A program made the translations under genes and the position numbers. This document shows, piece by piece, positions 49,442 through 62,383 of a stretch of DNA of 64,000 nt. Location: contig JAHEIH010000004.1 in the NCBI GenBank assembly GCA_024639455.1, positions 1 through 64,000 on the forward strand. The letters run 5' to 3'. Below the pieces are notes generated by a model. That model was not told where the DNA came from. It saw only the letters and a list, made by a program, of their open reading frames with translations, and made no database searches. The DNA comes from Cellvibrionales bacterium. GTDB lineage: Bacteria; Pseudomonadota; Gammaproteobacteria; Pseudomonadales; JAHEIH01. The first letter of the stretch is position 1. Each line of letters begins with the position of its first letter.

Positions 49442-49954
49442 TTATCCTCGCAATGGTTGCCAGAGCTCGTTCGATGTCTGCAATACGCGTAGACCGTTAG
49501 CATCGGCCGTGTGTAAACAGTCTACCACGCAGCGGCCGTCGGGAAAGCATAATGTCTCGTCGATATCGAGTAAGGGGCGCAGTACAAAGTCGCGTTCGTG
49601 GGCGCGCGGGTGGGGCAGTATTAAACGCTCGCTCGACATTTGGAGGGTGTCGAACAGTAACATGTCTAGGTCAAGCGTGCGTGGCCCCCAGCGAATGTCG
49701 CGCACGCGGCCGTGAAACTGTTCGATACCTTGAATGGCATCGAGCAGAGCTATGGGTGAAAGATCAGTGCTAAGCCGCGCGGCAGCGTTGACATAGTCGG
49801 GCTGTTCGCCAGGCCCCACGGCTAGGCTGCGGTAGCTGTTGGAAACGCCGGTGAGTTCGCATTGCGCCAGTTGGCTGAGCTCTCTTAGCGCTTGCAAGAT
49901 ATGTGAGGCAGGTTGTTCTAGGTTACTACCTAGGCCGATGTAAGCAATCGCCAT
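49442..49954 (-). CDS. folK: 2-amino-4-hydroxy-6-hydroxymethyldihydropteridine pyrophosphokinase
   Basis: 170 aa from ATG 49954. It is a canonical HPPK: IGLGSNLEQPASHI, SLAVGPGEQPDYVNAA, and GRVRDIRWGPRTLDLDMLLFD with both magnesium-binding aspartates and the conserved Trp. Its ATG overlaps the pcnB stop (TAATG). This is the copy expected to serve folate synthesis. Confidence 0.96.
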   Translation of the reverse strand: MAIAYIGLGSNLEQPASHILQALRELSQLAQCELTGVSNSYRSLAVGPGEQPDYVNAAARLSTDLSPIALLDAIQGIEQFHGRVRDIRWGPRTLDLDMLLFDTLQMSSERLILPHPRAHERDFVLRPLLDIDETLCFPDGRCVVDCLHTADANGLRVLQTSNELWQPLRG

Positions 49955-51303
49955 TAGTGCTGTGTCCTGCGGCGGCGACGGCGAGTAGGGCGATGTCGTT
50001 CGTCCTTCTGATCGTCGTGTTGCATACGTTGCGCGGGGCTGGGCAGAGGGTTGTCGCGTTGATAGTCTGTCCACCAGGCGCCAAGATCGCCAGTATTTTC
50101 GCCAGCTGTTTCGCGTAGTAACAAAAAGTCGTAGGCGGCGCGAAAGCGAGGGTGTGCTGCGGTGCGCTCGGGGCGTTTACCCTGGATGGCTGGCAGGCGA
50201 TACTGCAGGTCCCAAATCTCGCGCACGGTAATGGTAAAGCGCTTGGGAATGCTGATCTGACCTAGTTGGCCGCTGATCACTTGTTGGCAGGCCTGCTGGT
50301 AGGCATCCTGTGGTTTCATTTTGTTACCCAGCTTTTCGATCGCTTCCTGCAATGGTGGCCATAGCATGGCGGCGATAATAAAGGCGGGGGTTACCGATTT
50401 GCCGTCAGCGATGCGGGCATCTGTATTGCGCAGTGCCTGCACGATCATGGCCTGGTAGTGTTCGTTTTTCTGGCTGTGGGTAAGCGCCCATTCCGTTTGA
50501 GCGAACAGATGCTTGTAAAGGCCTAGCCGGCGTAATTGATAGAAGGTGCGCTCGCCATAGCCAGATTGGAATAGCTTTAGCATTTCGTCGAAGAGTCGCG
50601 CCGAGGACACGCTGTCTATCAAATTGGCAAGGGGTTCGATCGGCGCCTCTGTGGACGCTTCAATGTCAAACTCAAGTTTAGCGGCAAATCTTGCGGCGCG
50701 CAGCATGCGGACGGGGTCTTCGCGGTAGCGGGTCTCTGGGTCACCAATAAGACGCAGTAGTCCGTTGTGCAAGTCATCTAGGCCGCCGGTATAGTCGTGA
50801 ATCGTGCGGTCTTCAGGGTTGTAGTAAAGCGCGTTTACGGTGAAGTCGCGGCGGATGGCATCTTCTTCTACTGTACCAAATACGTTGTCACGCAACAGCA
50901 TGCCCGACTCGCTTTGGCGAGATTGTTGTTTGTTGAGGTTGTCGTCTTGATCGTGACTCCCTCGGAAGGTCGTTACTTCAATAATTTCACGACCTTGACG
51001 CACGTGCACAATGCGGAAGCGACGACCAACGATGCGTGAACCCTTAAAAAGCACATGCACTTGTTCTGGCTTGGCGTCGGTTGCAACGTCGAAGTCCTTG
51101 GGCCGGCCTCCCAGCTGCAGGTCGCGTACGCCGCCACCTACGAGGTAGGCTTGGTAGCCTGAAGCCTGTAGTTTTTTGATCACGGCTTGCGCACCACGGC
51201 TGATGAAGCGGCGCGAAATATCGTGCTCGTCGCGAGAAATAATCTGTTTTTTGGACTTGGTATTGGTCAAGGCAGTTAGTTTCTTTTTGAGCCATTGTTT
51301 CAT
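49954..51303 (-). CDS. pcnB: Poly(A) polymerase I
   Basis: 449 aa. The nucleotidyltransferase core LVGGGVRDLQLGGRPKDFDVATDAKPEQV carries the catalytic DxD. RRDFTVNALYYNP and RMLRAARFAAKLEFD follow. A basic tail (about residues 425-449) ends the protein and may bind RNA. It adds poly(A) to RNA 3' ends and promotes decay. First gene of the pan-fol operon, downstream of the CrcZ-like RNA. Confidence 0.96.
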   Translation of the reverse strand: MKQWLKKKLTALTNTKSKKQIISRDEHDISRRFISRGAQAVIKKLQASGYQAYLVGGGVRDLQLGGRPKDFDVATDAKPEQVHVLFKGSRIVGRRFRIVHVRQGREIIEVTTFRGSHDQDDNLNKQQSRQSESGMLLRDNVFGTVEEDAIRRDFTVNALYYNPEDRTIHDYTGGLDDLHNGLLRLIGDPETRYREDPVRMLRAARFAAKLEFDIEASTEAPIEPLANLIDSVSSARLFDEMLKLFQSGYGERTFYQLRRLGLYKHLFAQTEWALTHSQKNEHYQAMIVQALRNTDARIADGKSVTPAFIIAAMLWPPLQEAIEKLGNKMKPQDAYQQACQQVISGQLGQISIPKRFTITVREIWDLQYRLPAIQGKRPERTAAHPRFRAAYDFLLLRETAGENTGDLGAWWTDYQRDNPLPSPAQRMQHDDQKDERHRPTRRRRRRTQH

Positions 51304-51440: not shown

Positions 51441-51466
51441 AAACGAAAGGGAAGCTTTGCTTCCCC
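51441..51466 (-). terminator. Intrinsic terminator of the CrcZ-like RNA
   Basis: On the minus strand GGGAAGC-AAA-GCTTCCC (51465-51449) is followed by TTTCGTTT. A perfect 7-bp stem; it separates the small RNA from pcnB. The remaining 137 bp up to pcnB (51304-51440) show no clear promoter, apart from a TTGACG at about 51389 without a well-spaced -10. Confidence 0.85.
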
Positions 51467-51582
51467 ACCCAGGTCTCGGATTATTGTTATTAGTCATTTT
51501 ATTGTTATTTGTTGACGTACTACTCTTTATTATTTTTCTTACTAAGCGTTGTTATTTTTATTACGCATTATTATTTTTATTG
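51441..51582 (-). ncRNA. Candidate CrcZ-like Hfq/Crc decoy small RNA
   Basis: About 142 nt between cbrB and pcnB, in the CrcZ position of Pseudomonas. It is predicted to begin near 51582, 12 nt after the -12 GC of a sigma-54 promoter, and to end at an intrinsic terminator. Between them, five A-rich clusters carry AANAANAA-type sites: 51581-51568, 51562-51549, 51537-51527, 51509-51499 and 51491-51481, for example AATAATAA and AACAATAA. Short GC-containing spacers separate them. Such sites bind Hfq with Crc. There is no open reading frame of note. CrcZ of P. aeruginosa is about 400 nt, so this would be a compact version. Function is inferred from position, promoter type and motifs. Confidence 0.8.
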
Positions 51583-51592
51583 TCCGTTTAAT

Positions 51593-51608
51593 AGCAGTTG
51601 GCGTGCCA
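51593..51608 (-). promoter_or_regulatory. Sigma-54 (RpoN) promoter
   Basis: Minus strand TGGCACGCCAACTGCT against the consensus TGGCACG-N4-TTGC(A/T), one mismatch. GG (51607-51606) and GC (51595-51594) are separated by exactly 10 bp. It points away from cbrB into the A-rich RNA. Confidence 0.85.
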
Positions 51609-51673
51609 GCTTTTATAAGGCATTGTTTTTTATAAATAAATTATTTTTACACTAAAAAAATAGCTTTTTTTTA

Positions 51674-51766
51674 GTTACGAGTGTTACTAATTATCACGAG
51701 TTCGTTACCGGCACGGGAACACTTTGGGGGGTAAGGGTGTGGCCGGTAACGTTTCTTGAGGTAACA
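51674..51766 (-). promoter_or_regulatory. Putative CbrB activator-binding array
   Basis: Five half sites upstream of the sigma-54 promoter: GTTAC at 51674, 51683 and 51704, and its complement GTAAC at 51746 and 51761. Two form the 10-bp inverted repeat CGTTACCGGC/GCCGGTAACG (51703-51712, 51742-51751). They lie about 65-160 bp from the promoter, the usual range for an enhancer protein. From memory, CbrB sites in Pseudomonas contain TGTTAC and GTAACA halves. Confidence 0.65.
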
Positions 51767-51782: not shown

Positions 51783-53213
51783 CTAGGCGCTTTTCGTGGT
51801 TTTGTTTGATTTACGGCGGGGAATACCGAGTCGTTGGCGGCGTTCCCAAAGACACTTGCGGCTCACCCCGAGCTTTTTGGCAAGCTCTGTCTCGTTCATG
51901 CGGTCTTGGTGCTCTAATACAAAGCGTTGAAAATAATCCTCTAACGACAAATCTTCGTTGGGATCTTCTGCCGATAGGCTGCCGCTGCGTTGAGCGGCCG
52001 CAGAGTAGGGATTGCTGGCGTCTTCGTCGTCTTCTTCATCCAAGTCGTCACGCAAGCGATTTAGGTTAACCAATTCAAGATCGATGTTGAAAACATCATT
52101 GTCGATTTCATCTTCCTCGCTGAGGATGACGGCGCGCTGAATGGCATTTTCCATCTCGCGGACGTTGCCCGGCCAGGCGTAGGTGGTGATAGCTTGGATG
52201 GCGCGAGGCGAGAAGTATTTGCCGGGTCTATCCATGCCTTGGCTGATGTTTTCCAACAGTGTTTCAGCAATTTCAAGAATGTCGCGGCCACGCCCGCGCA
52301 GCGGTGGTACGTTGATCTGCATTACATTGATGCGATAGTACAAATCTTCACGGAACTTGCCGGCGGCGATGAGTTTTTTTAAGTCGCGGTGGGTCGCGGT
52401 GAGCAAGCGCACGTTAACTTTTCGCGAGTGCACTGAGCCGATGGCGCGAATCTCGCCCTCTTGAATGAAGCGCAACAGGCGTGCCTGTGCCTCGAGGGGA
52501 AGTTCACCGATTTCATCGAGAAACAGTGTGCTGTTATCGGCGGCTTCAATCAGACCGATGCGCGATGTCTGTGCCCCCGTAAAGGCGCCTTTTTCGTAGC
52601 CGAACAGCTCTGATTCGATCAGCGATTCGGGAATGGCGGCACAGTTCACGGAGATCATATTTTTGTCGCGGCGCTGACTGGCACTGTGAATGGCTTGTGC
52701 AACGCGCTCTTTACCGGTACCCGTTTCACCGTGGATCAATACTGAGGCATTGGTCGGAGCTACTTTGCTGAGATATTCATACACCGTGAGCATCGCGGGG
52801 CAGCTGCCAATCATGCCGAAGTGGGAGTCGTTGGCGATGACTTTGCGGGTGTCGTTGGCTGGCTTAGCGTTGTCGTTGATGATGCGTTTGACTGCGCGCA
52901 TCATCTCCTCATGGTCGAAGGGTTTGGCGATATAATCCACCGCGCCTTTTTGCATCGAATCTACGGCTGAGCGCAGGCTGGCGTAACTGGTCATAATCAA
53001 CACCGGCGTTGTTATGGCCAGTTTGATCAAATCGGTGCCGGGGGCACCAGGCAATCGTAAATCACTAATAATCAGATCGAAGCTGTCCAGTTCGAACTCG
53101 CAGGCCTCACGCACGCTGCCCGCTTCAGTGATGGCGTAGTCGTGACGTTCTAGAAGTCGACGCAGGGCGGTTCTAATGACGCTCTCGTCTTCGACAATAA
53201 GGATATTCAGCAT
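51783..53213 (-). CDS. cbrB: Sigma-54 dependent response regulator CbrB
   Basis: 476 aa. The receiver domain has Asp51 (DLIISDLRLPG). The AAA+ domain has Walker A GETGTGKERVAQAIH and the sigma-54 contact loop GAFTGA. A Fis-type helix-turn-helix sits at the C-terminus (ETELAKKLGVSRKCLWERRQRLG). An acidic linker precedes the HTH (about residues 395-420). It follows cbrA and precedes the CrcZ-like region and pcnB, the same order as Pseudomonas cbrAB-crcZ-pcnB. It should activate the sigma-54 promoter downstream. Confidence 0.93.
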   Translation of the reverse strand: MLNILIVEDESVIRTALRRLLERHDYAITEAGSVREACEFELDSFDLIISDLRLPGAPGTDLIKLAITTPVLIMTSYASLRSAVDSMQKGAVDYIAKPFDHEEMMRAVKRIINDNAKPANDTRKVIANDSHFGMIGSCPAMLTVYEYLSKVAPTNASVLIHGETGTGKERVAQAIHSASQRRDKNMISVNCAAIPESLIESELFGYEKGAFTGAQTSRIGLIEAADNSTLFLDEIGELPLEAQARLLRFIQEGEIRAIGSVHSRKVNVRLLTATHRDLKKLIAAGKFREDLYYRINVMQINVPPLRGRGRDILEIAETLLENISQGMDRPGKYFSPRAIQAITTYAWPGNVREMENAIQRAVILSEEDEIDNDVFNIDLELVNLNRLRDDLDEEDDEDASNPYSAAAQRSGSLSAEDPNEDLSLEDYFQRFVLEHQDRMNETELAKKLGVSRKCLWERRQRLGIPRRKSNKTTKSA

Positions 53214-53299: not shown

Positions 53300-56230
53300 C
53301 TAAGGCTGGCCTACAGGTAGTGTGATGACAAACCGTGTCCCCCGTCCATCGGAAGCGACTGGGCTTTGTACGGCGATGATGCCGCTATGTTGTTCGACAA
53401 TGGCGTAAACCAACGACAGACCTAGGCCTGTTCCGCTGCCTGTGTCCTTGGTAGTAAAGAAGGGCTCAAAGATTTTTTCTTGTTGGTCGGCCGGAATTCC
53501 ACAGCCTTCATCGATGACTTCTATTTGTATAGTGTCTTTGATTGCACGGCCATTGATGAGGATTTGTTGGCCTTCCTGCGAGGCGTCGCGCGCATTGGCG
53601 AGAAGATTGATTAATAGCTGGATAAGACGCTGCTCATCAATCGCGGCCACTGCTCCTTGCTCAATATTGAGCGTGAAGTCGACATGGGTCTTTTCTTTGT
53701 CGAGGGCAAGTAATTTAGTGGCTTCGCGGCAGCAGTAATCCAGCGATGCCGTAGCCTTGTCGTCAACACCGCCAGCGTATGTCTCCCCGTGGGCAAAATT
53801 CATCAGGCTGCGCACAATGGTGTTAACTCGATCGGTTTGGATCAAAATTTCTTTGGCGGTTTGATCGGCGCAGCCCTCTTTGATGTCGTAGTCGAGGTTT
53901 TGTGCGAGACAGGCAATGCCTGTAATGGGGTTGCCTATTTCGTGGGCGACACCTGCCGCCAGACGGCCAATCGAGGCGAGTCGTTCGCTGTGAATGAGTT
54001 CCTTTTCGAGTATTTGTGTCTCGCTGATGTCCTCAATCAACAGGAACTGCTCTTGTATATTGGTTGTGCTGTGACGCTCGACAGCGGCTTTATGCAGATT
54101 GACCCAGCGGCCGTCTGAATTGTCGCCAATCAAGCGCTTGTAAGAGTGGCGATGTTTGCCTTTAGCAAACTCGCCTAGCAAGTCTCCCCATGGAGTGGGA
54201 AGCGAGGCGAGTGGCTGTTTTAAGGCTTGTTGTTGGTTGATACCGGTGATCTCGGCGATGGTTCGGTTCCAGCTGGTGATTTTACCCATAGTGTCATAGG
54301 TGAGTGCACCAATAGGGAGTTCCAGCAGCATGGACTGGTAGTTGGCGCGCATGGTACGAAGTTCGCCCGCGACACCTTGCAATTGTGATTGCACCGATTC
54401 TAACTGGCTCTCTAGATATACGATGTCGCCTTCAATATCTTCGTTGTATGGCAACGCATTGCGCAGGGTTTGTTGGGCGATAACTGGGCCCAACAACTGG
54501 ATGAGGTTGGCCTCTAATGCCTTTATCAGTTCGGACACCTGTGTATCGCTGAGATTTCCCCAGCGCGCACCTATTTGCTGCAAGGCGCGGCGAACTTCAT
54601 GGCTGGCCGGAGTTTCACCAAGCGTTGGGGCAAGCCGCTGGGCGATATCGTTGGCGCTGTGAGTGTCGATCTGGCGTTGATCAGTTTGGTTTTGGTTGTT
54701 GAGCACGCAGGCCAGGGCGACGCGGCGTTCTTCGGGGCGCATGTCGCTGAGCCAGGAGATTAATAATAGCCCGATGACGTTGGCCATGAGGCTCGTGGCG
54801 GCACTCAGTGCCCAGATATTGGATGACATATCGAGCCGCAGTGTGAACCACTGTTGCTGATCATCGAGGCCTGTTACTACACCCTCCGGGAAGAAGACAA
54901 ACATGAGCCATACAGAAAAACCAGCAAAGAGCCCGCTGAGAAAGCCTTCACGTGTGGCGCCACGCCAATAAAGCAAGGCAATACAGCCGGGGATGAATTG
55001 TAGGCTGGCGGTAAAACTCATCAGCGCAAACCCTTGCAATTTGTCCGGGTCGCGCAATACCACGAACAACAGAAAACCCATGCTAGCAATAGCCACGATG
55101 GTGGCGCGACGTATCAAGTTGAGCTTTTGATAAATATTTTGCGAGGGGTTAAGCGGTGATATGCGCAGTACTACGTGGTTTACCAGCATGGTTGAAAGGG
55201 CCAGGTTGAGTACCACGACAATGCCCGCCGCCGCCGCGATTCCGCCGATAAAGGTCAGGCCGTTGAGCCATGGTGCATCAGCCAGTATGGCCATGCTGAT
55301 GCTAGCAAAACCACTGCTGTCGCTGCCCAGGGCTGCGCTGGCCCACAGCGTTGGTAGCACCGGTAACGACATGACTAACAGCAGCAACGGGACCGCCCAG
55401 CGGGCGTTGTCGAAACGTCGCCCGCTGGCGGAGGCGCCGGCGAATACCATGTGAAACAGGTGTGGCATACCGATAATACTGGCGAAGAAAATGATCATTA
55501 GAATTTGGTAGGAGGGGGTCACGCTCGGTTTATAGAACTGTTGGGTGGTGCTTGGATTGTTCAGCAGCCATTGTTCAAGCCCCGCTGGGCTGCCAAACAC
55601 GCCCCAGATCGCAAAACCGCCGAGGGCAAGTAGGGCGATCACTTTTACAAGGCTGCTCATGGCAATCAGGGCGATGAGATTTTGGTGTCGCTGGCTGGTG
55701 GCATTGTGGCGCGTGCTGAGTTGCAGCGCGCTTACGGCACACAAAATAGTAAAAATAGTGATCAGCCAGTATGGGCGTTCAGCGTTATTGGTAGCCAATA
55801 TTTGATTGGTGGCTTCAGCTAGGGTTTCTAATTGCAGTGCATAGAAAGGCAAAATCGAAACGATCAATAATAGGGTGGTGGTGGTGCCTGCGGTTGGGCT
55901 GCGAAAGCGAAAGCTCATTAAATCCGCTAGCGAAGTCAGCTGATAACGTTTGCACAATTGCAGAAGTGGCTGTAACAGTAAAGGCGCGGTGAGAAATACG
56001 GCGCTGATACCAATGTAATAGGAAAAGGCTGAGATACCATAGTTTTGCACTAGCCCCGTCATGGTAAAAAAGGTCCACGCACTGCCAATGATGCCAAGTG
56101 AAATGTGGTAGGCGAAAGGTTTTTTTGTGAGGTTGCGCCAGCCTTTGTTTAGGTCAATGAGCGCGGAAACACCAAACCACCCGGCAAAGAAAAGCAGCAC
56201 CAAAATAAGGAGAATGCCAGCGCTAAGCAC
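53300..56230 (-). CDS. cbrA: Sensor kinase CbrA with sodium/solute symporter domain
   Basis: 976 aa from GTG 56230. The first 490 or so residues are a multi-helix sodium:solute symporter-like domain. Then come a linker, a PAS domain ([23 protein letters not shown], about 640-740), HisKA with His763 in [13 protein letters not shown], and a complete ATPase domain ([33 protein letters not shown]). This architecture is diagnostic of CbrA. It senses carbon/nitrogen state and phosphorylates CbrB. Its start overlaps the small upstream gene by 8 nt, suggesting translational coupling. Confidence 0.93.
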
Positions 56231-62221: not shown

Positions 62222-62383
62222 TGTGAGGCCCTTACGTAGTGTTTCAGAAAGACGCAACTATAGCACAAGCGACTTTGATGGCACATATTTTGAACTTATT
62301 GTGAGTGTTTCAAAAAAAATGCTAATGACCTGCATCTAAATGGCAATGTCTGGGCGTCAGATAGAAAACAAAAGGAGTAAATC

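Follow-up and report, generated by a model that had tools for sequence, protein, structure and literature searches.

A compact CrcZ-type RNA predicted between cbrB and pcnB, with counterparts in related bacteria

Introduction

RNAs of the CsrB/RsmZ type carry repeated motifs that titrate an RNA-binding protein under two-component control. CrcZ is the decoy RNA by which Pseudomonas relieves carbon catabolite repression. CrcY and CrcX are extra CrcZ-like copies present in Pseudomonas and Azotobacter. The CbrAB system has been called unique to, or exclusive of, the Pseudomonadaceae (PMC8871633, PMC6296734), and Crc has been called Pseudomonad-specific (PMC9890229), in those parts of the articles that were accessible. 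Our literature search found no report of a CrcZ-type RNA outside the Pseudomonadaceae; most subscription journals were not covered, and an earlier report is not excluded.

Here we describe a compact RNA predicted downstream of cbrB in a Cellvibrionales bacterium. It is very probably a CrcZ-type regulatory RNA, made by CbrB and sigma-54 and titrating Hfq (with Crc), a mechanism that is inferred. A reading of the DNA sequence alone had called the stretch CrcZ-like, and every predicted check that was run supports that view. The parts and the logic of such a system are known; its range, the size of the RNA, its tandem copies and a conserved 3' box are undescribed in the searchable literature.

Organization of the cbrB–pcnB locus

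The window (the whole 64,000-nt stretch of DNA that was analysed) contains, on its minus strand, cbrA and cbrB followed by the predicted RNA and pcnB (Table 1). In the direction of the genes, the elements run from the CbrB-type half-sites through the IHF-like site, the promoter and the predicted start to five ARN runs, the 3' box and the terminator hairpin. These DNA elements, like their conservation and the genes for the protein partners described below, are observed directly. The RNA would measure about 143 nt if its start is counted from the −12 G of the sigma-54 promoter, which places that start one base from the position (51582) proposed by the sequence-only reading. No open frame runs through it, all three forward frames being interrupted by stops. 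Its place downstream of cbrB, on the cbrB strand, fulfils the positional criterion for a CrcZ gene.

Table 1. Features of the predicted RNA locus and its neighbours in the window
Feature	Position	Strand	Basis
pcnB, poly(A) polymerase	49954..51303	-	TIGR01942, 499.9 bits
Predicted compact CrcZ-type RNA	51441..51583	-	Promoter and terminator positions, five ARN runs, conservation in relatives
Intrinsic terminator hairpin, then TTTCGTTT	51449..51466	-	Stem of 7-8 pairs, 3-nt loop, imperfect T tail
Conserved 15-nt 3' box GAGACCTGGGTGGGG	51463..51477	-	Box match in near loci; model R1
ARN run 5, four triplets	51480..51491	-	Triplet count
ARN run 4, four triplets	51498..51509	-	Triplet count
ARN run 3, six triplets, 18 nt	51526..51543	-	Triplet count
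ARN run 2, five triplets	51548..51562	-	Triplet count
ARN run 1, five triplets	51567..51581	-	Triplet count
Sigma-54 promoter TGGCACGCCAACTGCT (-24/-12)	51593..51608	-	11/12 informative positions of TGGCACRNNNNTTGCW
IHF-like site AAACAATGCCTTA	51616..51628	-	8/9 informative positions of WATCAANNNNTTR
CbrB-type half-site GTAACTA, reverse type	51672..51678	-	Subsite sequences in PMC6296734 (accessible in part)
CbrB-type half-site GTAACAC, reverse type	51681..51687	-	79 nt before promoter
CbrB-type half-site GGTAACG, reverse type	51703..51709	-	GTAAC 100 nt before promoter
CbrB-type half-site GTTACC, forward type	51745..51750	-	Sequence match
CbrB-type half-site TGTTAC, forward type	51761..51766	-	Sequence match
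cbrB, sigma-54 dependent response regulator	51783..53213	-	Response_reg and Sigma54_activat
cbrA, sensor kinase	53300..56230	-	12 hydrophobic segments, PAS, HisKA, HATPase_c

The sigma-54 promoter and the five A-rich clusters within about 100 nt, both already recognised in the sequence-only reading, were borne out. Fifteen sigma-54-like sites score at least 10 in the 64-kb window; of these, one besides this promoter, on the plus strand at 62279, reaches 11. The IHF-like site upstream was scored against WATCAANNNNTTR, which we take to be the IHF consensus. Among the half-sites, GGTAACG has the letters of the P. putida crcZ R2 subsite GTAACg, and TGTTAC is identical to subsite F1 of that species (PMC6296734, of which only part was accessible). 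The two forward half-sites lie 142 and 157 nt before the promoter; many loci have theirs near 120. With CbrB-type enhancer sites, an IHF site and a sigma-54 promoter present, this criterion for a CrcZ gene is met by sequence, activation being inferred. The half-sites, the IHF-like site and the conserved 15-nt box were absent from the sequence-only reading.

In the 107-nt body of the RNA, ARN triplets form exactly five runs of four or more (5, 5, 6, 4 and 4; 24 triplets in total). Dinucleotide shuffles of this body have a mean of 0.97 runs, and none of 2000 reached five. No 107-nt segment of the plus strand of the 64-kb window holds more than one ARN run, and the best six minus-strand segments listed all correspond to the RNA locus. 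Several A-rich (ARN) sites for the distal face of Hfq, a further CrcZ criterion, are thus present in the form of these five runs. By the ARN rule, the triplets of run 3 equal in number the six distal pockets of an Hfq hexamer (PMC9890229, in the part available).

The intrinsic terminator reported earlier stands as a hairpin; the description of it as perfect is a little strong, because the tail (TTTCGTTT) is imperfect. Covariation in the terminator was no better than in shuffles: 93.2% of cells are paired, a level reached by 96 of 500 shuffles (average 91.9%), and we draw no support from it. The fold predicted for the complete RNA is likewise undistinguished (z = −1.44; 17 of 200 shuffles fold equally well), and has two 4-bp stems around runs 2 and 4. 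Weak T tails were seen in the terminators of the window RNA and of relatives' RNAs (e.g. TTTCGTTT, CATCATTAT). Such tails are unusual among Hfq-bound sRNAs; they would fit binding of Hfq through its distal face only.

Protein partners and proposed mechanism

The genome of 2.88 Mb is 99.5% complete, and the suggested search of it for hfq and crc found both, as well as RpoN. CbrB is 65% identical to the copy adjoining a Pseudomonas-type CrcZ (locus L015, genome G020). For CbrA, Pfam reported no transporter domain at 1e-3. The best PDB match of the single Hfq is the 1u1s sequence, shared with 8bvh, which we take to be P. aeruginosa Hfq. The only Exo_endo_phos match in the genome is Crc, encoded between rph and pyrE; its best PDB match (E 1.1e-58) is 4jg3, ‘Catabolite repression control protein’, the Crc used in Hfq–Crc complexes. 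Relative to the exodeoxyribonuclease 2jc5, it carries substitutions at four catalytic positions (N to C, E to D, D to N and D to R). Judged from these substitutions, the protein is a well-conserved, nuclease-dead Crc. Its NCBIfam name, exodeoxyribonuclease III (xth), follows from family membership and takes no account of the residues that were lost. The presence in the genome of both Hfq and a nuclease-dead Crc, another CrcZ criterion, is thereby satisfied.

In the proposed mechanism, CbrA would phosphorylate CbrB on poor carbon sources. CbrB would then bind the GTTAC/GTAAC half-sites and, with the DNA bent by IHF, activate the sigma-54 promoter (51608–51593); the resulting RNA would titrate Hfq (with Crc) from A-rich mRNA leaders. 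Transcription, dependence on CbrB and sigma-54, binding of Hfq and Crc, and any effect on targets are inferred, there being no expression or binding data.

Relation to Pseudomonas crcZ

The sequence-only reading had expected existing CrcZ models to miss this RNA. They do: against Rfam CrcZ (RF01675) it scores 20.2 bits (8.3 in a 401-base search), and the family criterion, a gathering score of 95 bits, is not met. With a score so far below threshold, Rfam was set aside as a classifier of the RNA. The 20 compact or near-compact loci that were searched likewise fall short of every Rfam threshold. Among 20 more distant loci the CrcZ gathering score is reached by two: L015 (306.8 bits), a Pseudomonas-type locus with the identical order of elements in its cbrB–pcnB gap, and L018 (102.5 bits), from another family. 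Because the window unit shares position and promoter layout with L015, we join it to CrcZ despite its 20.2 bits. By position it corresponds to Pseudomonas crcZ, of which it is a compact form carrying a 3' box of its own.

Conservation across the order

CbrB, at a cut-off of E 1e-100 or better, is encoded in 50 of 56 genomes of the order, and the cbrB loci of all 50 were fetched. The cbrB stop is readable in 49 loci, in 37 of which pcnB follows within the fetched stretch; in all 30 loci tested, the window's own among them, cbrB is preceded by the C-terminal part of cbrA. Downstream of cbrB, 48 gaps of at least 150 bases could be counted, and 36 of these contain a sigma-54 site scoring at least 10 (shuffle mean 2.1, maximum 6). 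Within 230 nt upstream of these 36 promoters there are 115 half-sites, compared with 18.8 in shuffles (maximum 33), and ARN triplets in runs number 13.0 per locus in the 120 nt downstream of the promoter versus 0.44 upstream. The spacing is also recurrent: in 22 of 35 loci a GTAAC begins 79–82 nt ahead of the promoter, and IHF-like sites matching at least 8 of 9 positions occur in 25 of 35 (shuffle mean 5.4, maximum 13).

With a looser promoter score of 9, a promoter-plus-ARN unit is found in 38 of 47 analysable cbrB loci. As the sequence-only reading had proposed looking for, the promoter and A-rich runs are therefore present in most of the relatives' gaps inspected. Three loci were left out: L022, where the contig ends before the stop codon, and L029 and L052, whose cbrB frames are interrupted. 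L052 has a promoter and ARN runs; L029 has ARN runs and no recognised promoter. The predicted arrangement occurs in most of the sampled families of the order, contrary to the limit to the Pseudomonas family drawn in reviews.

Some loci depart from the common form. In two loci of one genus (L014 and L037, genomes G009 and G051), the unit in the cbrB–pcnB gap looks worn down, L014 having only two short A-rich clusters and L037 keeping AGACCTGTGCGGGG without a recognised sigma-54 site. The gap of L048 (G043) has half-sites and ARN runs and no recognised sigma-54 site, and the G043 genome yielded no Crc homologue. At the other extreme, L026, L039, L040 and L051 have very long ARN spans of 393–519 nt, with as many as eleven runs that each hold four triplets or more. 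The terminator finder missed many long units, which are for this reason reported as ARN spans and not as RNA lengths.

A dead Crc, scored as the loss of at least two catalytic positions, is present in 39 of the 56 genomes. It is recognised in 29 of 38 genomes with a unit and in 6 of 9 without one, which are similar shares; a strict coupling of Crc and RNA was not found. The nine unit-bearing genomes that lack a recognised dead Crc include one with a partial gene (G022) and one that is 75% complete (G003).

Beyond the order, a class-wide search that scored four candidates per genome, and may have missed some, found a CbrB-like protein at the same cut-off in 35 of 369 genomes, four of them within the order. 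Twenty of the 31 outside loci were fetched, and none of these stretches, two of which were short, contains a promoter-plus-ARN unit or pcnB. Sigma-54-like sites occur in seven of the 20 and ARN runs in seven; one locus has both, 113 nt apart. These were rejected as units, since a site is never followed by an ARN array. A further locus inside the order (L233) has the unit.

A compact group marked by a conserved 3' box

The compact RNA is not peculiar to this organism; it is one of a conserved compact group with a near-invariant 3' box. Members, often present as tandem copies, are predicted to be about 80–150 nt in all, the window's RNA being among the longest, and end in GAGACCTGGRTGGGG before the terminator; in the 24 box-bearing units, 53–123 nt separate the expected start from the end of the box. 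No part of the RNA is more conserved than the box, which marks the group. In 9 of the 10 nearest loci (L003–L012), an unselected set, it matches 13 or 14 of the 14 letters of AGACCTGGRTGGGG. The 22 sequences of model R1 (box plus hairpin) were picked for a box match, so their invariance is partly due to selection; left out before alignment were the false box match in L006, near-duplicate L057, and L036. The criterion for membership in the box-bearing group, GAGACCTGGRTGGGG directly before the terminator hairpin, is met in the window. R1 scores 41.6 bits (E 3.6e-7) at the window's RNA, which belonged to its training set, and 15.7 at the second-best match in the genome, leaving only one strong copy there.

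Searched across 293 genomes of the order, R1 has matches in 53. Fifty of these belong to 11 families, and three weak matches (f2, f15 and f38) are probably due to chance. Thirty R1 loci were fetched: 29 sit in a cbrB–pcnB gap, and in the remaining one cbrB is present and the contig ends. Among the named carriers are a Spongiibacteraceae MAG, HTCC2143, Oceanicoccus and Dasania, the last two with two copies, and two tandem units are present in five of eight named-carrier loci. In genome G045, a dispersed third copy (locus L193, about 1130–1340, from contig 138) has half-sites, sigma-54 promoter, ARN runs and box, with no cbrB–pcnB context seen on its contig; L196, on the opposite strand, is a probable fourth copy.

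A quick CbrB tree places all box-bearing rows in one 26-row group (SH-aLRT 86). The idea that compact units form a single clade was rejected, since the same group holds long or missing units (L013, L021, L030, L041 and L042) and short spans are also found outside it (L033, L043, L049 and L050). Only the box is therefore claimed as a mark of the group.

Candidate targets

Two patterns that place an ARN-type run 1–14 nt before an ATG gave 26 matches in the window's genome, versus 15 for the backward-read pattern; three of the 26 repeat a place and one is the RNA itself. Eleven ORFs of 80 codons or more have the run 9–14 nt ahead of their start, and a twelfth has a wider gap. When one pattern was shifted 61–74 nt upstream it found two ORFs versus six, both beside nearer starts. 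Ten candidates were scanned for domains. Four are major-facilitator-type transporters, of which two match Sugar_tr over its full length; the others are AceK, MarR, a short-chain dehydrogenase, a thioesterase, a LolA-like protein and a metallo-beta-lactamase-fold protein, whose start is unsure because of a long open frame upstream. The enrichment is modest, and the putative targets, including two sugar porters and AceK, are suggestive only.

Alternative explanations

The stretch shares its strand with pcnB, lies 145 nt ahead of that gene's start, and could in principle be a pcnB 5' leader with an attenuator hairpin instead of a free RNA. We find this scarcely credible: several relatives have two complete tandem units, each with half-sites, promoter, ARN runs and box, before pcnB; the full unit on another contig of G045 has no such context in sight; and Rfam calls L015 CrcZ at the equivalent position. 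The prominence of the box, as the most conserved stretch and the mark of the group, would suit a base-pairing, Hfq-dependent sRNA in which the box is the active part and the A-rich runs are only handles for Hfq. In our judgement that is very unlikely. Two of 12 candidate targets, and neither hfq nor crc, have a box-complementary 7-mer between −80 and +60 relative to the start, which leaves a role for the box as antisense to target starts unsupported; CrcZ-type loci outside the group have no box.

A further explanation bears on the partner and not on the RNA. In many of these bacteria the RNA may be an Hfq sponge that works without Crc, Crc being an optional helper. The nine unit-bearing genomes without a recognised dead Crc imply that the RNA can exist without it, and Crc is found in six of nine genomes that have no unit. 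An RNA without recognised Crc is consistent with a leading role for Hfq among its partners; for P. aeruginosa, Hfq has been reported to be the principal regulator and Crc ancillary (PMC4063720, in its accessible part). We regard this explanation as unlikely, though not negligible. In the window's genome the dead Crc is well conserved and is the sole Exo_endo_phos match, so Crc is probably involved in this organism.

Implications

A wider proposal, which we hold tentatively and which may well fail, is that the CbrAB–CrcZ–Hfq(–Crc) switch is ancestral to the whole order and not to the Pseudomonadaceae. In one lineage of at least 11 families, the decoy would have been cut to a minimal 80–150 nt, sometimes with only two Hfq sites, amplified in tandem, and furnished with a new conserved 3' module (GAGACCUGGRUGGGG) having its own function, e.g. 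binding a protein or controlling how the RNA decays or terminates. Should the switch prove order-wide, carbon catabolite repression would become predictable in many other bacteria, together with the RNA to measure, the promoter to fuse and the leaders to test. The relatives also offer a natural series of decoys, in which the number of runs with four triplets or more goes from two to eleven, that bears on how many Hfq sites titration needs. The compact copies are of a size suited to structural studies together with Hfq and Crc, and the box, with no known function, is a concrete new element to explain.

Comparison with known systems

The compact RNA shares with Pseudomonas CrcZ (L015) its position between cbrB and pcnB, the sigma-54 promoter, TGTTAC/GTAAC half-sites, ARN runs and a terminator. 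It differs in size: the estimate of about one third of the usual length made by the sequence-only reading agrees with our figure of about 143 nt, against 407 nt for P. aeruginosa CrcZ (PMC4063720, accessible in part). Unlike CrcZ, it packs five runs into 107 nt, and compact RNAs carry the near-invariant GAGACCTGGRTGGGG box, which is not seen in L015 or L018. As with CrcY and CrcX, relatives have extra copies with the whole promoter layout. Unlike those RNAs, the extra copies are mostly tandem in one gap, and the dispersed L193 unit of G045, away from cbrB–pcnB, resembles Pseudomonas CrcY. The logic of the CsrB/RsmZ-type RNAs is also shared, with ARN runs for Hfq in the compact RNA in place of GGA loops for CsrA.
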